The translations under genes were made by a program, and so were the position numbers. A stretch of 39,897 nt of DNA from the NCBI GenBank assembly GCA_003224715.1, contig QHZP01000100.1, forward strand, positions 1-39,897. Direction: 5' to 3'. This document shows, piece after piece, positions 3,512 through 13,969 of this stretch (position 1 is the stretch's first letter; the number at the start of each line of letters is the position of its first letter). The notes beneath the pieces are model-generated. The model was not told the DNA's origin and searched no databases. It saw only the letters and a list, made by a program, of their open reading frames with translations. The DNA is from Acidobacteriota bacterium (GTDB taxonomy: Bacteria; Acidobacteriota; Terriglobia; Versatilivoradales; Versatilivoraceae).

Positions 3512-3859
3512 TTATTCCTCGGCGATTTCGATTTGGTCTCCCAATTGAGTCTGAGTTGAAGTGATGGTGTGTGCTGGCAGCTCAATTACGCTCTTCGCCC
3601 TGGAAACATGTATTGAGATACGAAATGGCTTCATGTTCTCAATCAGGTGAACTACTGTTTTTTCGCTGTCTAAGAAAATAACGTCTATGGGAAAACGCAT
3701 CCACATTGTGTGGATGCTCTGGCATGGCACTAGCCACAAACCTGCCCCGTGGGGAAGATTGCGTTTACCCAGTAAGCCAATCAAGCTGCTAAAAATTGTA
3801 TCGGCAGTAGACAGAACATCGGCTAGAGTTTTCTTTCGAGTCACATTGATCGCTTGCAT
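3512..3859 (-). CDS. DUF192 family protein
   Basis: 'GLLGKRNLPHGAGLWLVPCQSIHTMWMRFPIDVIFLD' matches the DUF192 signature. ORF runs to 3883 from a TTG inside the terminator T-tract; the family start is more likely ATG at 3859 (MQAINVTRKKTLADVL). Confidence 0.8.
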   Translation of the reverse strand: MQAINVTRKKTLADVLSTADTIFSSLIGLLGKRNLPHGAGLWLVPCQSIHTMWMRFPIDVIFLDSEKTVVHLIENMKPFRISIHVSRAKSVIELPAHTITSTQTQLGDQIEIAEE

Positions 3860-3881
3860 TGAACCAAAAAGGATGAGCACC

Positions 3882-3919
3882 AAAAAAGAAAAGGTTAACG
3901 GTCTTTTGAACCGTTAACC
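3882..3919 (-). terminator. Rho-independent terminator at the 3' end of the tad operon
   Basis: Perfect 10-bp inverted repeat GGTTAACGGT (3893-3902)/ACCGTTAACC (3910-3919), 7-nt loop, followed on the minus strand by TTTTCTTTTTT. Confidence 0.75.
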
Positions 3920-3954: not shown

Positions 3955-4047
3955 TTATGATTTGCTGGACCTACGTTTGATCACAATTACCAGAAGGATC
4001 AGGAAAATAACGAACAAGGCAAGCTTGGCCCACCCGGCTGGTGACAT
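3955..4047 (-). CDS. 30-aa single-pass membrane microprotein
   Basis: Read directly: MSPAGWAKLALFVIFLILLVIVIKRRSSKS*. SD AAGGAG lies 6 nt upstream of ATG (AAGGAGCGTTCTATG). Sits between tadC and the terminator. One hydrophobic helix followed by a basic tail. Confidence 0.6.
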   Translation of the reverse strand: MSPAGWAKLALFVIFLILLVIVIKRRSSKS

Positions 4048-4097: not shown

Positions 4098-5036
4098 TTA
4101 CTGGCCGCCCATTGCTGGAAACAGCTGCTTGATGATCTTAATGACACCAGGCCCTAAGATAACCACAAACATAGCAGGAAAGATCAAGAAAACGAGAGGG
4201 AAAACAAGTTTGACTGAGACTTTGTGTGCTTTTTCCTCGGCACGCTGTCGTCTCTTGGTCCTTAAGGCGTCCGAGTGGACTCTCAAAGATTGAGCAATAC
4301 TCGTCCCAAATTTGTCGGTTTGGACCAACATAGAAACTAAACCGTTAATATCTTCCACTCCCGTCCGTTCAGCCAGGTTTCTCAATGCCTCTTTTCGGGG
4401 CTTACCAGCTCTCAACTCCAAATTAACCAGGTTGAGCTCATCACAAATATCTGGATGAGTAACTCTCAGTTCTTCACTTGTCTTTAGAATGGCTTGATCC
4501 AGCCCCAGGCCCGCTTCCACGCAAACTACCAACAGATCTAGAGTATCCGCAAGTGCCAACTGAATTCTTTCTTGTCGAGCGCTTACGCGGGTTGAAAGTA
4601 TAAAATCCGGGAGAATATATCCAACACCAACACAGGTCACCAAAGCAATGACCAGGTTCTCGCTTGGCATGCTTCGAACTGAACCGGACAGAAATAGAAT
4701 TAAGAGGGCTACAATTATCAGCGCCATCTTAATTCCAAAGAAAATTGTGACAGCAGATTTATTGCGATAACCTGCCCTCATGATTTTTTGCGCTGTTGCC
4801 CCTACTTCTTTGGGAGATTTGGGGATTAGCCTGCTTAGTGGTTCAAATACTTTTTCGACCCCCGTCTCCCGCTGGGACCTTAACACACTCTCGCCGTATG
4901 GCTTAAAGGGATTAGATTTCTCCAAATCCGAAAGACGCTCGGCCAACGGATTCCTCTTTCGCATTAAGGCATACTGAATGTAAAAAACCAATGAGGTTGC
5001 AAGTATGAAAGTGATTAGAGTAATAGCAATTAGCAT
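4098..5036 (-). CDS. tadC: Tad inner-membrane protein TadC (T2SSF domain)
   Basis: 312 aa; 'LADTLDLLVVCVEAGLGLDQAI', 'LVQTDKFGTSIAQSLRVHSDALRTKRRQRAEEKAHKVSVKLVFPLVFLIFPAMFVVILGP' typical of TadC. Confidence 0.93.
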   Translation of the reverse strand: MLIAITLITFILATSLVFYIQYALMRKRNPLAERLSDLEKSNPFKPYGESVLRSQRETGVEKVFEPLSRLIPKSPKEVGATAQKIMRAGYRNKSAVTIFFGIKMALIIVALLILFLSGSVRSMPSENLVIALVTCVGVGYILPDFILSTRVSARQERIQLALADTLDLLVVCVEAGLGLDQAILKTSEELRVTHPDICDELNLVNLELRAGKPRKEALRNLAERTGVEDINGLVSMLVQTDKFGTSIAQSLRVHSDALRTKRRQRAEEKAHKVSVKLVFPLVFLIFPAMFVVILGPGVIKIIKQLFPAMGGQ

Positions 5037-5056: not shown

Positions 5057-6034
5057 TTAGACCTTAATCTTAACGATCTTCCTGATGATGATATAGCCTA
5101 AGATCTGACAAAAGCCCGCCACCGCCAGCATGTAATGTCCAACCTTTTCATTGAACAAGGCACTCATGTACTGCCAGTTCATCATTGAGAGAATTAATCC
5201 CATCGCGACGGGAACTGCTGTAAGAATATAACCTGTCAACCGGCCTTGGGCGGAAAAGGTGCGGACCTCACCCATGATTTTAAACCGTTCTCGAATCACA
5301 TCGGAAAGGTTCGTCAGAATCTCAGCTAGGTTTCCTCCTGTTTCCTTTTGCATCAAGACAGCCGTCACAAAAAATCTCAAATCCAACAAGGGGATTCGAT
5401 CTACCAAGTTGAATAACGCTTGCTTCAATGGCAGCCCAAAATTTTGCTCGTCATAAGTGGTACGAAACTCCTTACTAATCGGATCAACCATTTCCTCGGC
5501 GATCATTTCTATGCCGGTATTGAAAGCATGTCCTGCTTTAACAGCACGAGTGAGGAGGTCGAGGGCTTCAGGAAAAAGCTCCTCGAATTTATCGAATCGC
5601 CTCTTTCGCTTGTATAAGACTATTAACAAAGGAATTGAGGAAAGAAAGCCAGCTACCAGGAGACTGACTGGAATGATATTCGTCAACTGCTGAGAAACAA
5701 TGGCACTAAGAGCAAACAATATGAGCGAGATCAAAATGAAGGTGCTCACTTGAAGCTTAATGTCTGCTTGGTTAATTAGCTTTTTCAGGCGATTGCTATG
5801 CGAGAATTGCAAAAGGATCTTATTAATTACCGGGACATCACTTAGAAGTTCTTTTTTGATCAAATCCAATTCGGGCGAAGGAGCTCTTCGGCCTGCCTCG
5901 GAAATCGACTCGAGTCGATCTCTGATCTGCCGCCGTTTGTTTCTCTCCGGCATTTCCCAGATGAAGAAATAGACCCCTCCAATGAACAGGATGGCCATAA
6001 AGAAAATACCTAAAGAAATCAAAATGGGATCCAT
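5057..6034 (-). CDS. tadB: Tad inner-membrane protein TadB (T2SSF domain)
   Basis: 325 aa; 'FPEALDLLTRAVKAGHAFNTGIEMIAEEMVDPISKEFRTTYDEQNFGLPLKQAL...AVLMQKETGGNLAEILTNLSDVIRERF' typical of TadB. Confidence 0.93.
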   Translation of the reverse strand: MDPILISLGIFFMAILFIGGVYFFIWEMPERNKRRQIRDRLESISEAGRRAPSPELDLIKKELLSDVPVINKILLQFSHSNRLKKLINQADIKLQVSTFILISLILFALSAIVSQQLTNIIPVSLLVAGFLSSIPLLIVLYKRKRRFDKFEELFPEALDLLTRAVKAGHAFNTGIEMIAEEMVDPISKEFRTTYDEQNFGLPLKQALFNLVDRIPLLDLRFFVTAVLMQKETGGNLAEILTNLSDVIRERFKIMGEVRTFSAQGRLTGYILTAVPVAMGLILSMMNWQYMSALFNEKVGHYMLAVAGFCQILGYIIIRKIVKIKV

Positions 6035-6051: not shown

Positions 6052-7399
6052 TTATCGTTTATAGTCGGTCACATTATCAAACATGCTGGCCGGCAGGTGA
6101 ATACCTGAGTATTTAAGTCTTTCTGCAAACTTAGGACGAATTCCAGTGGCCCGAAACCGACCTAAGACTTTTCCTTTTTCGCCAATACCAACCCGTTCAA
6201 AGACAAAGATATCTTGCATAGTCACAATGTCGCCTTCCATACCTACAAGTTCAGAAATACTCATTATCTTACGGGTACCATCACTTAGGCGAGAAGCCTG
6301 AATGACCAAATCAACCGCAGATGCAATTTGCTGGCGCATGGCTTTGTCAGGCAGGTTCAGGTTGGCCATAGAGATCATCGTTTCCAGTCTCGCTAGAGCA
6401 TCTCGAGGAGAATTGGCGTGTATCGTCGTTAGAGATCCATCATGACCAGTGTTCATTGCCTGAAGCATGTCTAGGGCTTCTTCACCACGAACTTCACCTA
6501 CGACGATTCGGTCCGGTCGCATACGCAAAGAGTTAATCACCAATTGCCGCTGCCGAATAGCACCTTTGCCTTCGATATTGGGCGGTCGAGTTTCCAACCG
6601 AACGATATGCTCCTGGTGAAGCTGCAATTCCGCGGCATCTTCGATTGTGACAATACGTTCATCTTCGGAGAGTAGTTTTCCCGGAGCCAGTTCCACCAGA
6701 AATAATTACATTGAGCCGAGCCTTGACGATGCCCTTGAGCAATTCCAACATCGCGGGCGTCAGGGTGTTGTTATTCAGCAAATCATCAGAGGTCAGAGGA
6801 GCAGAGCCGAAGCGACGAATGGACATTATGGGCCCATCCAAAGCGAGAGGAGGAATAATAGCATTCACACGCGAGCCGTCCGGCAGTCTCGCATCTACCA
6901 TCGGGGAGGACTCATCCACCCGTCTTCCCACGGCGGAAACAATCTTGTCAATAATCTGCATCAAATGGGCGTCGTCTTTGAAAACGACGTCAGTATGTTC
7001 CAATTTCCCCTTTCGTTCGATATAAACACTCTTACAAGTGTTGACCAAAATATCGGAAATGGTGGGATCCTTGAGAAGCGGCTCCAGCGGCCCCAATCCT
7101 AAGACTTCGTCTAACACTTCATTGACTAGCTTTTCCCGCTCAAGAAGGCTTAAGGGAGTTGTTTCTTCAACCAGCAAGCTCTCCACAAGTTTCCGAATCT
7201 CATTGGTCAAGACTGGCTTAGTCAGGGTAGAAATGCTTTCGAGATCCAGTTTATCCAGAAGTTTTCGATGGATGTTATGCTTCAGTTCTTGAAAATGATT
7301 CACACTTACCGAAGAGGACGCCTTGTTAAAGCGGTCATTCCAGGAGGAACGCTCCGGAGTAGGAATTCCTTCCCTAGTAAATAATCTTGTTTCGCCCAT
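6052..7399 (-). pseudogene. tadA: CpaF/TadA secretion ATPase, disrupted just after Walker A (frameshift plus apparent deletion)
   Basis: Two overlapping frames, 7399-6659 ending '...[17 protein letters not shown]' and 6696-6052 continuing '[33 protein letters not shown]...', together form one CpaF. The segment normally between GKTTLL and .DERIVTIED is missing. Confidence 0.8.
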
Positions 7400-7437: not shown

Positions 7438-8631
7438 TTATTTTCCAAATAGTCCCAAGAACCCTTTTTTCTTTTCCTTTTCCACAGGCTTTTGCGGCTG
7501 GACCTTTGCTACCTGCTGAACAAATTGGGCAAAAGATCCTGCAATCTCGGTGTGGTTTACCGTGGAGAGAGGAACTCCACTATTGACGGAATTGATTATT
7601 GTTGGCCAATCGTTGGGGAAGAACCAGTATACGGGAAAACCGAGTGTTTCTTCAATGTCTTTCGCTCGGATTTCCAAACTCTTCTGATAACGATTAATTA
7701 ATAGTCTGATCTTTTCCTTCTTATAGCCCATGCGTTCGAAAATAGACAAGCAACGCTGGGCATTTCGCAACGAAGGAAGGTCTGTATTCGATATCAGGAA
7801 TATGATAGAAGACTGGTCTAGTGCCGCCACAGTATGATCGTCAAAAGAATTCGAGGTATCAACAATAATGTACTCGTAATTACTTTTCAAAAATTGCAGG
7901 ATTTGCCCAACCTGAGCAGCTCCGACAGTTTCTACTTTTTCCAATGAATCAGGTGCAGCCAGCACATCCAATCCAGAAGCATGTTTCTTGATAAAACCCT
8001 TGAGAAGTATACTGTCCATTCGATGGATGTTGTCAGCTACATCAATAATTGTGAAGGCGGGCTTTATTCCCAAAAACAAGGAAACCTCACCTAGCTGCAT
8101 ATCCAAGTCCACCATGATTGCGGACTTCTTCGTTTGCTCTGTCAGGCTTACCGCAAAATTCGTCGAGATCACGGTCGAGCCGGTTCCACCTTTCGCACTA
8201 AAGAAAGTGAATAACTTGCCGTACCGCTTCTTTTCTTTGTTGACAACGGCATGAACTTTGCTTACACGTTCAGTGGCAGCAAACAGAGTTTGCGGTTCCA
8301 CGGGATTGGGCAGAAATTCCTTTGCCCCGGCTCGCATGGAACGCAAAATCGTGTCAGCGTCCGTGCCGTCACCTGACACAAAAATATGACTGTGTTTGGA
8401 AATCTCGACGATTTTCTCGATGGTAAGAATTCCCTGTTCCTTGTCAGGAAAGAGATCGACAATAACGATATCCGCCTCCATGGACTTGATCTCGTCAAAG
8501 ATCCAATTATCGAGGGCCGAATAGAAATTGTTAAGTTCGGCCCGGATTTCAATTTGGTCCGATCCTTCTAATATTTCGCGAATGTGGTCTCGGAATCCTT
8601 CGTCGGGACTAATGATAATGGCAGACAGCAT
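7438..8631 (-). CDS. tadZ: CpaE/TadZ-like pilus localisation ATPase (receiver-like plus MinD/ParA-like domains)
   Basis: 397 aa; N-terminal pseudo-receiver, then 'LFTFFSAKGGTGSTVISTNFAVSL' deviant Walker A and 'YEYIIVDTSNSFDD'. Confidence 0.88.
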   Translation of the reverse strand: MLSAIIISPDEGFRDHIREILEGSDQIEIRAELNNFYSALDNWIFDEIKSMEADIVIVDLFPDKEQGILTIEKIVEISKHSHIFVSGDGTDADTILRSMRAGAKEFLPNPVEPQTLFAATERVSKVHAVVNKEKKRYGKLFTFFSAKGGTGSTVISTNFAVSLTEQTKKSAIMVDLDMQLGEVSLFLGIKPAFTIIDVADNIHRMDSILLKGFIKKHASGLDVLAAPDSLEKVETVGAAQVGQILQFLKSNYEYIIVDTSNSFDDHTVAALDQSSIIFLISNTDLPSLRNAQRCLSIFERMGYKKEKIRLLINRYQKSLEIRAKDIEETLGFPVYWFFPNDWPTIINSVNSGVPLSTVNHTEIAGSFAQFVQQVAKVQPQKPVEKEKKKGFLGLFGK

Positions 8632-8650: not shown

Positions 8651-9148
8651 TTAACTAGCACCTAAGCCTTCCAGTGGAAGGGTAGTTGAAAAACTTGGAA
8701 GAGTGATTCCTGCTCCAAACAGAGGAACCAGGAAACTGAACTGGTAGCCGGCAATACTGATTTGGATGACATCGGCCAGACTTTTGTTGGCAGAAACCGA
8801 GCCATCGTTCATCAGGTACTGTACTGACACGTTGCTTTCGCTCAGACCTGGAACAACCGGCTGACTAGAGGTAGTTCCGTTCGGGTCGTAGTACACGACA
8901 AATTTTATGATTTGAGCATCATCACCGGTGGGCGCTTCCACGACAGCGTATCTCGCCCCCGCTCTTGTCGCCTGAACGATGGTGTTCCAGGTCCAGAGAG
9001 CCCGGGAAAACTCAATAATCCCGAAAAGAAGCAAGAGAAAAAGCATGGCAACGAAGGCAAATTCTACCAAGGTTTGACCTTCTGCTCGCCCTGGAGTGGA
9101 CCAACGACATTTTGATAAAGGTTTAGTAGGTAGCATTGGGCCCCACAT
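8651..9148 (-). CDS. TadE-like minor pilin
   Basis: 'RAEGQTLVEFAFVAMLFLLLLFGIIEFSRALWTWNTIVQATRAGARYAV': TadE motif with G/E prepilin-like site. Start may be ATG at 9136. Confidence 0.88.
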   Translation of the reverse strand: MWGPMLPTKPLSKCRWSTPGRAEGQTLVEFAFVAMLFLLLLFGIIEFSRALWTWNTIVQATRAGARYAVVEAPTGDDAQIIKFVVYYDPNGTTSSQPVVPGLSESNVSVQYLMNDGSVSANKSLADVIQISIAGYQFSFLVPLFGAGITLPSFSTTLPLEGLGAS

Positions 9149-9644
9149 AGCGCATTCTAAACTGCGGACTGAAATTTACATTTAGATTGATGAGTCCAGG
9201 CACAAGCGAGTTAAACGGATATCCATTTATTCTGATGGTGACCCACCCTGGCGGATTCAACTCCGAATAGGGAGTTGTTCCACCGTCGGGGATCACCTGT
9301 ATCTTTGCTATGGTCAACCCGGGCAGCACTGGCATACCGGACCCGCGAGTATTTCCATAAACGACCATGTTCTTCGCATTATCCATCTCTGTGGTGCTAT
9401 AGATGTGACTGATCATATATCGACCACCGTCGCGAATAGCCTTGCTGAGCGTATTGTACTGGTAGAATGCACGTCCAAATTCAGTCACGCCAAAAGCAAG
9501 CAGAGCCAACAAAGGCAGAACCGCCGCAAATTCCAAGAGACTTTGTCCCCTTTCGGCCGCAAGGAATTTGATCCTTTTTCTCCATGAACTATATCTCTTC
9601 GTGGGTGCTAACTCCCCTACGGAACACGTTCCAAATACTGTCAT
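9123..9644 (-). CDS. TadE-like minor pilin
   Basis: 'ERGQSLLEFAAVLPLLALLAFGVTEFGRAFYQYNTLSKAIRDGGRYM'. Confidence 0.88.
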   Translation of the reverse strand: MTVFGTCSVGELAPTKRYSSWRKRIKFLAAERGQSLLEFAAVLPLLALLAFGVTEFGRAFYQYNTLSKAIRDGGRYMISHIYSTTEMDNAKNMVVYGNTRGSGMPVLPGLTIAKIQVIPDGGTTPYSELNPPGWVTIRINGYPFNSLVPGLINLNVNFSPQFRMRYVGPNATY

Positions 9645-9659
9645 AATACAAACCCTCGC

Positions 9660-10799
9660 TTAACGGTAGAGTACGAGCTTTCTGTCGCTCGGAAGTCCGG
9701 ATCTGCCCGCTGGCGATCTGGTAGGATCCACTTTACCGCTGGTATTGCAGAACCCTACGAATTCCCCGGTCACATCCACATTACCGTTGGGAACACGATT
9801 GTTTATAAAGAAGCAGACAATGTCAAAGATATAAACTGGGCAGTCCCTCCCATTCTGAATCGCCTGCAAGCTGACGGGATCAGAAGAAACGAGGGGCACA
9901 CGAAGAATCCTTCTGCCATTGCCATGCAATGATTGCCCGTAGGAGCTGTATCCTGCAAGGTATTCGGAGTAAGTAATCCCTTGACGAGTGTCGGTGTCGG
10001 AGTCAAAACGATCATTGAGCCCTTGCCTAACAGGCCCAGCATTAACCCCTGGCTTAGAACAGATGGCATCCCCGACTCCAATGCATCCCGTTGAGCCTCC
10101 ATAAAGCAGATCACGAACCAGCGATGCACCGCTATTCCCACCTGTTATCGGGCTGAAATCCAACACAAGGTAATTTCCTGATCCTGTGGGAGGAGGGTTA
10201 TTCCCACCCCCAAAACGGAGGGTGTACTGTTGTCCTGTAACGTAGTTTGTAACCAGCCCTCCAGGCCCCACTAGAGGTTCAGGCGTCAATGGGGATAAGC
10301 CATCGCAAGCGTAGTTCAACGGCGGGCTTTGTCCAGCCACAGCAACTGCATCGACATTTTGGGTACTGGCAATTCCGGGTAATACCTTGATCAACGCCAA
10401 GTCCATGTTCTTCTGTGTGATAACCTTCACAAATCTTATGCTCGCTGGACTTGCTGCAGCAGTAGCCTGAGATACATACCCACTGTCGCGGACAGCGCTG
10501 AAAGTGACTTCATCGGCAGTCACAGTTACGGGTTGACTATTGAAATTGTAATTGTTACTAGCGGCCACGGCGGACGACACTGCTGCATCAATCCCGCTGG
10601 CTGCACCATTCAACTCAGCAGCTCCAGCCATGGCTGCAGCGTCCACGGCATTTTGGAGTTCGCTTTTAACATTATAGAGCCTTCCTAAATCGAAAGCTAG
10701 CCCCGCCATGCCAAGAAATACTAACAGCCCTGCCGCTACTATGAAAATAACAACACCTTTTTCGTTTCTTGATGGCTGATTGTTTGACCTAGTAACCAT
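9660..10799 (-). CDS. TadG-like protein (Flp pilus-assembly TadE/G-like)
   Basis: 379 aa; 'NEKGVVIFIVAAGLLVFLGMAGLAFDLGRLYNVKSELQNAVDAAAMAGAAEL' TadG-type N-terminus. Confidence 0.85.
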   Translation of the reverse strand: MVTRSNNQPSRNEKGVVIFIVAAGLLVFLGMAGLAFDLGRLYNVKSELQNAVDAAAMAGAAELNGAASGIDAAVSSAVAASNNYNFNSQPVTVTADEVTFSAVRDSGYVSQATAAASPASIRFVKVITQKNMDLALIKVLPGIASTQNVDAVAVAGQSPPLNYACDGLSPLTPEPLVGPGGLVTNYVTGQQYTLRFGGGNNPPPTGSGNYLVLDFSPITGGNSGASLVRDLLYGGSTGCIGVGDAICSKPGVNAGPVRQGLNDRFDSDTDTRQGITYSEYLAGYSSYGQSLHGNGRRILRVPLVSSDPVSLQAIQNGRDCPVYIFDIVCFFINNRVPNGNVDVTGEFVGFCNTSGKVDPTRSPAGRSGLPSDRKLVLYR

Positions 10800-10903: not shown

Positions 10904-12349
10904 CTAGGGCTTACTTGAGCTAGTAGACCCAGCCTCGGAGGAACCAGCTCTTCCATCGACACGACCTACTTTCCCGTCAAACTTTTGTGGATCCAAAAAC
11001 GGCTTAGGAGCCTCAGGTAGAGGAGGTAACTGATCGGGATTTAGCGGTTTCACAAATTTTGGAGTCACTAAAACCAGTAATTCCGTCTTTGACTTTTGGA
11101 GCTGTCGGCTTCTGAAAAGGTAACCCAGGATTGGAATATCTCCCAGACCGGGAATCTTGTTATAAACTTCAGACAGACGGTTATCAATGAGTCCTGCAAT
11201 GGCAAAACTCTGTCCGTCCGCCAGTTCTATCTCAGTTTCGGCTTTTCGAGTGCTTAAGGCTGGAATAAAGAAACCACCAATCGTCACTGCGTTAGTGAAG
11301 TCTAAAGCACTCACTTCTGGTGCAACTTTCAATCGTATTTTGCCGCTCGGAGTGATATTGGGGGTAAAATTGAGTCGAACACCAAACTGCTTGAACTGAA
11401 TTGTCACAGAATTGAGATTTTGTGAACTTTGAACAACGGGAATTGGGAATTCACCACCTGCCAGAAAACTGGCCTCTTTCCCATTCGATGCCAGCAAATT
11501 GGGCTCAGCTAGTATTTGAAGCAGGTTTTTTTGTTGCAAAGCTTTGATGGTAGCACCCAGATTGAGGTCGAAGCGAAAAGCAAAAATATTCAAGACATCC
11601 TGGAGGGTCTGGGTAGATGTAAATCCAGGCCCTCGGGCAGGCTGGACTGTATTGAGGTTCACATCCCTCAGACCACTTCCAAACTGTTGAGTGGAAATTG
11701 AACCGAGAGTATTCCCAGCCCCGGTATTGAATAGGTTGATACCTAACTGTTGCGTGGCTGAACGATCCACATCGGCAAACTTAACTTGAAGCAAAATCTG
11801 CTCTGCATCCGGAGGGGGCGGTAATTGCAATAGGTTAATTACTTTTTGAGAAAAAGAGCCGGCAATTTCGACGGCCTTTTCTACAACATGGGGATCACTC
11901 GCAGTTCCCGAGAGCACCACGGCTCCCTTGGCAGAAGAAATATTAATATTCTCGGTTGGAAACTGCTCCTCAATCTGTCGCTGCAATAATGAAATATCAA
12001 CTTCCACTACCAAATCATAACTGGTACTTTTTCCTGTCCGGTCCCAAAGAATAAGGCTGACAATTCCTGGTGCCTTGCCATGAATCATAACCTGCTGAGG
12101 AGAGATCACAACCTGATCTGCTATGGCTGCATCGGTTATGGAGACCCTTTCGATGGGCTCAGCCGTATTCACGATAATAGACTTTGAAACGATGGCCGTG
12201 AGTTGAGGGACATCGGAAACGTGCTGTCGTATTGGGGCTTGGGCTATCAAATCCTGATTCACGTAGCCCATGATGAATGTTCCCGTTATTAGGAGTAGTA
12301 TCATTGTGCAGTGAAAGGGCTTCTCGAAAATAGCGACAACGTGCTCCAT
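10904..12349 (-). CDS. cpaC: Tad secretin RcpA/CpaC
   Basis: N-terminal BON/pilus-formation region and C-terminal secretin core 'LLQILAEPNLLASNGKEASFLAGGEFPIP...LRLKVAPEVS..GLGDIPILGYLFRS'. Preferred ATG at 12349 has SD AGGAGG; the track ORF extends to 12382. Confidence 0.92.
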   Translation of the reverse strand: MEHVVAIFEKPFHCTMILLLITGTFIMGYVNQDLIAQAPIRQHVSDVPQLTAIVSKSIIVNTAEPIERVSITDAAIADQVVISPQQVMIHGKAPGIVSLILWDRTGKSTSYDLVVEVDISLLQRQIEEQFPTENINISSAKGAVVLSGTASDPHVVEKAVEIAGSFSQKVINLLQLPPPPDAEQILLQVKFADVDRSATQQLGINLFNTGAGNTLGSISTQQFGSGLRDVNLNTVQPARGPGFTSTQTLQDVLNIFAFRFDLNLGATIKALQQKNLLQILAEPNLLASNGKEASFLAGGEFPIPVVQSSQNLNSVTIQFKQFGVRLNFTPNITPSGKIRLKVAPEVSALDFTNAVTIGGFFIPALSTRKAETEIELADGQSFAIAGLIDNRLSEVYNKIPGLGDIPILGYLFRSRQLQKSKTELLVLVTPKFVKPLNPDQLPPLPEAPKPFLDPQKFDGKVGRVDGRAGSSEAGSTSSSKP

Positions 12350-12547
12350 GAAAGTTTTTCCTCCTGAGATTTGCGGAACCAAGTCTGGCAGCTTGCGTCT
12401 CCCAAGAAACTGGATGCTGTCCTAATCTAGCTCCTTCAAGAATTCGTCAATATGTGTCAATTGATATTAGAGACAAGCGCTGAACTGTATGACGTAAAAA
12501 ACCGAAAAACTCCTTTACAGATATCTTTGTGCTGTGTTCTGTCGAAA

Positions 12548-13376
12548 TCAAAACTTCACGGTGGCTCGCTGATCGCCCTTAATAACTTCGATATTCGTTG
12601 CTGGAGCAACAGGTGGAGGTGGCGTCGGAATCACCTGTGGAACGCGCCTGGGCGCCTTAACAACTGCGGGAGGAGGAGCAGAGCCACGAATCAATTGACT
12701 CATCTGAATTCCGCGAGTCTTCGCCTCCTCCATATCGAGAGGATTCCTCAATGCCAATTGGAACTGACCCTGAGAACTGGCGCTGGTGAGCTTTTCCACT
12801 TCTTCGGGAGTCACAAACAGGGTCACGGCCGTAACCGTCACTGGTTTGCCCTCTGCATCCTTTTGGATAGCCGGACCTGCGCTGGCCACATAGACGTTTT
12901 GCAGCACTATCTTCGTAATAGCCTCCTGTGCACCAACTGGAGTTGCGGTTAGAACAACGTCCACTCGAGTTCCTGGCAAGACATATCCCACGACACCGAT
13001 GATTTCATTGGCTCGAATAGACATAGCCCTTTGGCCCTGGGGGATGGCTGGAGGCAAACCGGCTCCGGTTAAGTTTTGATTCGAGAAGGGGCTCATTGTC
13101 CACGACAGGCTGAATTAATCCTCTGCCAACCAAATCTTCCTTGCGCTCAAAGTAACCGGCTGGGAGGTTGGTCGCCGGCCAAGGAACAAATTTGAGACTC
13201 TCATCTTTGAGCAGAGTGCCCAGCGGTAATTTCCCCGAGGCCACGACAATGCTCTTTTCTGGGGTTCTTTCAACCCTCACCGGTCGTGTCTGAAGATAGG
13301 TATAGACGGCATAACTTAATAGTCCCCCTACCGATACTGCAACAATCAGAACTATAAGGATCCTTGCCCTGTTCAT
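12548..13376 (-). pseudogene. cpaB: CpaB/RcpC pilus assembly protein split by a single-frame shift
   Basis: N-terminal frame 13376-13005: MNRARILIVLIVAVSVGGLLSYAVYTYL...FERKEDLVGRGLIQPVVDNEPLLESK. C-terminal frame 13096-12548: NLTGAGLPPAIPQGQRAMSIRANEIIGVVGYVLPGTRVDVVLTATP. Together they read as one CpaB (SAF domain). SD AAAAGGAG before 13376. Confidence 0.82.
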
Positions 13377-13423
13377 GAATCACTCCTTTTCAAAAGGTTA
13401 TTCATTGCTGTATAGAGAGTGGT

Positions 13424-13969
13424 TTAGAACCCGAAGTCTGGAATCCGCTTGAGCCATACTGCCAGGATAACTCCCGCTGCAATTGCTACACCATAAGGCA
13501 ACTTGATTGAAGTCTCGTTTCTGATCGTCAGATTTGCGTCTTTGTTGTGAGTGCGCAGAATCCAATCCAGGAGCAAGATCTTCAAATTGCGAAAAGTTTG
13601 AGAAAATGCTTTCTTGTAAAGTATCAATATTAACGCCAAGACACCGCCGACAAGTGCCATCCAGATAAAGGAATAGAAAACCAGTTTCGGGCCAAGAAAG
13701 GCTCCTGCAACGCAAAGTAGTTTCACGTCGCCCGCTCCCATGCCACCCACTCTATACACAAAAAACAAAAGCAAAAAGCCAATTATGAGCCCAGTAATGC
13801 TTGAGGAGAGACCCTTAGCTCCATATAGGTGAAAGTTTAGAATCACACCCAGTAGAGCGGACGGAACAGTAAGCCAGTTGGGGATCTTCTGTGTGAGAAC
13901 ATCAATGACGGCCGCAACCACCACACACGTAATTGCTGCGCCGCAAAGATAATGATTCATCGAATCCAA
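13424..13969 (-). CDS. cpaA: Prepilin peptidase CpaA/TadV (A24)
   Basis: 181 aa; 'DVLTQKIPNWLTVPSALLGVILN' and 'GGMGAGDVKLLCVAGAFLG': both A24 aspartate motifs. Confidence 0.92.
   Translation of the reverse strand: MDSMNHYLCGAAITCVVVAAVIDVLTQKIPNWLTVPSALLGVILNFHLYGAKGLSSSITGLIIGFLLLFFVYRVGGMGAGDVKLLCVAGAFLGPKLVFYSFIWMALVGGVLALILILYKKAFSQTFRNLKILLLDWILRTHNKDANLTIRNETSIKLPYGVAIAAGVILAVWLKRIPDFGF

Follow-up and report, generated by a model that had tools for sequence, protein, structure and literature searches.

The tad locus and its short terminal gene

The window, that is, the whole stretch of 39,897 nucleotides analyzed here from an Acidobacteriota genome assembly (contig QHZP01000100.1), carries a full Tad set comprising a prepilin peptidase, RcpC, a secretin, one TadE/G-like and two TadE-like proteins, TadZ, TadA, TadB, and TadC. 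Behind tadC lies a 30-codon microgene, followed by a terminator. In the direction of reading, the features are as follows:

10904 to 13969, minus strand: genes for the secretin RcpA/CpaC, RcpC/CpaB, and the prepilin peptidase TadV (domain search)
8651 to 10799, minus strand: two TadE-like genes and one TadE/G-like gene (domain search)
7438 to 8631, minus strand: tadZ-like gene, receiver plus ParA-type ATPase (domain search)
6052 to 7399, minus strand: tadA/cpaF ATPase gene, split by a frameshift (T2SSE in both pieces)
5057 to 6034, minus strand: tadB, platform protein T2SSF (Pfam PF00482)
4098 to 5036, minus strand: tadC, platform protein T2SSF (Pfam PF00482)
4059 to 4054, minus strand: Shine-Dalgarno (SD) sequence AAGGAG of the microgene, 6 nt from the ATG
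3955 to 4047, minus strand: microprotein gene, 30 amino acids (ORF reading, homologues, pN < pS)
3919 to 3893, minus strand: intrinsic terminator 3' of the microgene, an 11-bp stem and then a T-rich tail
3512 to 3883, minus strand: DUF192 gene, the first gene past the terminator (domain and locus comparison)

The microprotein ORF runs on the minus strand from an ATG at 4047 to a stop codon at 3957-3955, with 50 nt between it and the tadC stop at 4098. It translates as MSPAGWAKLALFVIFLILLVIVIKRRSSKS, for which a single transmembrane (TM) helix at about residues 5 to 23 and a basic tail, KRRSSKS, are predicted. The arms of the terminator hairpin are GGTTAACGGTTCAAAAGACCGTTAACC-TTTTCTTTTT, and the DUF192 gene is found downstream of the microgene in many relatives as well. 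Re-reading of the sequence confirmed the first-pass annotation with respect to the ORF itself, the AAGGAG-N6-ATG spacing, the hydrophobic helix, the basic KRR tail, and the position between tadC and the terminator. Its remark that the gene is too small for usual gene callers stood only in part: the usual minimum is 90 nt, and at 93 nt the microgene is borderline rather than strictly below it.

Relative to the intact tadA of G006, a genome from another genus of the same family, the window tadA lacks 26 nt, in one gap of 14 nt and another of 12 nt, immediately after Walker A (6650-6700 on the minus strand), resulting in the frameshift. This may be a draft-assembly fault or may mark a dead motor (pseudogene); the comparative evidence on the microprotein is unaffected by it. 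For the TadE/TadE/TadG-like genes of the window (8651-10799, between secretin and tadZ), G006 has no matching genes at the corresponding position (L243), although the other parts of the locus are 45 to 93% identical between the two genomes. Elsewhere in the window, positions 602-1960 on the minus strand encode an AAA-type ATPase that is 81% identical in G006. Look-alikes of this protein are encoded directly behind tadC in L050, L051, L054, and similar loci, and it is apparently a regular, unnamed neighbor of Acidobacteriota tad loci.

Purifying selection and inheritance with TadC

The microprotein ORF is a real gene under purifying selection. In G006, a copy 70% identical in sequence lies directly behind a TadC that is 78% identical to that of the window. 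DNA identity between the two reaches 67% within the ORF, compared with 28% in the 3' stretch and 51% in the 5' stretch that holds the SD, and for this pair pS was 0.67 and pN was 0.23 (Fisher P = 5e-4). Among relatives, pN was lower than pS in 36 of 36 disjoint pairs (pooled pN, 0.143; pooled pS, 0.482), with third codon positions contributing 471 of 816 changes (230/115/471 at positions 1, 2, and 3). The first-pass annotation had stated that a lack of synonymous bias in syntenic relatives would refute its proposal; since pN < pS held in all pairs, the proposal withstands this test. As a control, the same loci were screened for any ORF of 23 to 62 amino acids with an SD, a hydrophobic stretch, and a basic tail located within 260 nt behind ORFs of at least 250 codons. 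Such an ORF was detected behind only 1 of 862 other long ORFs, and that one was itself a tad copy (otherwise 0 of 861); on the antisense strand of that stretch, the count was 0 of 78. Although the ORF has merely 30 codons, the possibility that it arose by chance is refuted by the bias in every pair, together with synteny and co-occurrence, and its probability is negligible.

No family in Pfam or NCBIfam reached its curated cutoff with the microprotein, with weak matches to generic TM or sorting-signal models only. A direct search with the 30-amino-acid sequence yielded nothing but noise beyond G006; therefore, synteny and a profile were used. The first-pass annotation had suggested looking for short hydrophobic, basic-tailed ORFs downstream of tadC in relatives, and such an ORF was present in 26 of 30 TadC loci that had been fetched by TadC alone. 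In a 299-genome sample of the class (E ≤ 1e-4), the microprotein profile matched 146 of the 165 genomes with this TadC and 0 of the 134 TadC-less genomes. Among the best 150 profile matches, 105 lay directly behind a listed TadC and 18 more did so on inspection, for a total of 123 (∼82%). Because some later loci were fetched through a microprotein match, the clean rates are those of the TadC-only loci and the 299-genome survey. Some of the genomes missed by the profile carry a diverged ORF at the same place, such as MEYAILAVVLLLGLVVYNRKGKRA or MINLTQLVILLVIIAIVIAAYGLRERT, while others have no such ORF behind tadC; synteny was retained despite sequence divergence in L232, L234, L238, and L233.

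Outside the class, five of seven matches in other families of the phylum also sit behind tadC. In Blastocatellia, most presumed Vicinamibacteria, Betaproteobacteria, Nitrospirota, and Gemmatimonadota, the TadC loci had no microgene, and tadC was followed immediately by the next gene. When mapped on a TadC tree of 158 rows, presence of the microgene required 9 changes, versus 41 for shuffled labels, and each TadC had a microgene of its own in genomes carrying two Tad systems (G023, G025, and G049). Selection has kept the gene beside tadC in a large group of Acidobacteria from soil, including Terriglobus albidus DSM 26559 (L084), whose microprotein is MDNITLIRVVSGVLFVVVLMFLIYRRRTRVH. Taken together, synonymous bias, synteny, and co-occurrence strongly support the claim of a protein-coding, Tad-linked membrane microprotein.

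An SD-like motif precedes 110 of the 112 homologues compared. The weighted number of distinct microprotein sequences is about 33. In 17 of 112 loci (∼15%), including L094, L121, L144, and L180, the microgene is present in two or three tandem copies, about 40 to 170 nt apart, which are also under purifying selection (pS, 0.40; pN, 0.09).

Copies outside the tadC context and alternative functions

Approximately 27 of the best 150 profile matches (∼18%) are not directly behind tadC. In family f6, the copy is downstream of a putative TonB-like gene (named by its look), and in the one such case inspected over a longer span (G145, L250) that position is at the distal end of the tad cluster. The other such copies, mostly from f5 genomes, are outside tad loci and adjoin putative malate dehydrogenase (mdh) and/or SET-domain genes. 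These paralogs, met in Tad-bearing genomes only, end in EDDF or ENDF (L185, L200, L206, L208, L209, L215, L223, L224, and others) and have the core RIVAGVLAV..RRK in common with the tad copies. Because copies away from tad carry this core, the microprotein family is broader than Tad, and its fold is not exclusive to Tad.

Such homologues in non-tad surroundings of Tad-bearing genomes, for example between mdh and SET-domain genes and with an EDDF C terminus, speak for a small, general-purpose adaptor or regulator in the membrane, recruited to tad operons yet acting elsewhere, outside the platform, in membrane stress, lipid, protease, or signaling functions. However, the TadC-less genomes of the survey yielded no match at the same threshold, and presence tracks the TadC tree, to the point that separate Tad systems can each possess one. 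We consider a general adaptor possible but rather unlikely.

Type I toxins are small proteins with a hydrophobic helix and a basic tail, encoded in tandem copies, and the microprotein resembles them in each of these respects. A small hydrophobic toxin of a type I toxin-antitoxin-like system, or a selfish peptide, is nevertheless improbable given the place behind tadC, fixed over the whole class, and the inheritance along the TadC tree; moreover, the gene has a strong SD of its own, and a similar ORF is absent from the opposite strand. We give an equally low probability to a role as a leader ORF controlling, through attenuation or translational coupling, the genes that come after it (DUF192, TPR). 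In the window, the terminator does come right after the microgene and is followed by DUF192, but terminator-like sites were found after the microgene in only 5 of 112 relatives. This lack of conservation led us to reject a leader peptide or attenuator; in addition, selection acts on the amino acid sequence, which has no run of a single codon type. Least probable of these, despite the location immediately behind tadC, is the reading that gene fission in this lineage detached a helix from TadC: the helices and C terminus of TadC are the same with and without the microgene, and no fused form was seen. Because TadC is identical in this respect in both sets, the split helix was rejected, and the microprotein is considered an added part.

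Candidate role at the TadB/TadC platform and likeness to known systems

Most microproteins are 29 to 33 amino acids long, and those of one TadC branch reach 51 to 56 amino acids through an N-terminal extension. The N terminus is short and uncharged or acidic, and the edge of the helix is occupied by Arg, Gln, Ser, or Lys; then come about 20 hydrophobic residues, followed by RR (91 to 92%, weighted) and more Arg or Lys. Net charge is about 0 before the TM segment and mostly +3 to +6 after it. Based on this pattern and the positive-inside rule, the microprotein is predicted to be bitopic, with one TM helix in an N-out/C-in topology.

We lean toward the hypothesis that the microprotein is an accessory bitopic subunit of the TadB/TadC inner-membrane platform, CydX-like in its mode of action, because its gene is located right behind tadC, its inheritance follows TadC and not the genome, and it has no catalytic feature. 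Gene order, co-inheritance, and topology appear best explained in this way, although the microprotein is missing from the Tad systems of several Acidobacteriota lineages and of many other bacteria, which counts against a platform subunit. The copies away from tadC, some of them in the mdh/SET-domain region, and the frameshifted tadA of the window also weigh against it. According to this hypothesis, translation would rely on a ribosome-binding site of its own shortly past tadC, and the protein would span the inner membrane once, with a short periplasmic N terminus, a helix of about 20 residues, and an Arg-rich cytoplasmic tail. The helix would pack against the TadB/TadC platform in the bilayer, with the RR tail on the cytoplasmic side close to the TadA motor, and the microprotein would stabilize or tune the platform in the way that CydX serves cytochrome bd.

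A more specific version of this role, which we regard as doubtful, starts from the architecture of the two platform proteins. TadB ends in two helices, of which the last runs out-to-in and carries a basic tail, whether or not the genome has the microgene. In TadC, a single helix closes the protein, and the TadB-type last helix is missing in every lineage examined. Since the predicted topology of the microprotein is that of the helix that TadB has and TadC lacks, the microprotein might serve as a detached fifth helix for TadC, filling the place of the last out-to-in helix of TadB. If so, the TadB/TadC heterodimer would be pseudo-symmetric, Acidobacteria would have a tunable three-part platform, and tandem copies would make variant helices possible.

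A recent study of the Tad motor describes a platform of CpaG/TadB and CpaH/TadC and names no other platform parts; it offers rival rotary and gyratory models for the transfer of work from TadA to the pilus through TadB/TadC (PMC11300603). Our literature search on Tad and small proteins, for which most subscription journals lay outside coverage, found no paper describing a small subunit here. A PDB profile search with TadC gave no match, and a plasmid collection in which an annotated copy of the microgene was sought returned distant Proteobacteria TadC only. The microprotein is probably a so far undescribed accessory component of the known Tad machine. An additional membrane subunit that is conserved and occurs in cultured Terriglobus would provide a handle on TadA-to-pilus transmission and would add a missing Tad part over a whole bacterial class; at a length of 30 residues, conserved machine parts can escape counting.

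Small membrane proteins are already part of the same Tad system in the form of Tad/Flp pilins and the TadE/TadF pseudopilins. In pilins, however, the basic part precedes the helix and is accompanied by a G/A-xxxx-E site for processing by the prepilin peptidase, whereas the basic part of the microprotein comes after the helix. A type IV/Flp prepilin was rejected, as G/A-xxxx-E is absent from 111 of 112 microproteins, the single match lies before the helix, and the topology is opposite to that of a pilin. Sorting-signal tails of the LPXTG and PEP-CTERM type likewise consist of a helix and then an Arg tail, in line with the weak profile matches, but the microprotein is a stand-alone product with its own SD and start and with neither a preceding domain nor a sorting motif.

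Further likenesses are offered by small subunits of other membrane complexes. The acrZ gene is encoded away from acrAB, whereas the microgene is in the operon. AcrZ is also a small single-helix protein and packs against the membrane part of AcrB (PMC7267776), with binding solved for AcrZ and inferred for the microprotein. Membership in the complex is similarly proven for CydX and inferred for the microprotein, and we claim no sequence relation between them: CydX has the motif YxxWxxGx15E, in contrast to the RR(R/K) after the helix in the microprotein. Nonetheless, subunits of the CydX/CydY type share with it a length of about 30 to 40 amino acids, one helix, a place as the last gene of the operon of their complex (cydAB), few conserved residues, a strong ribosome-binding site, and an occurrence linked to a particular form of the large subunit (PMC4325964).
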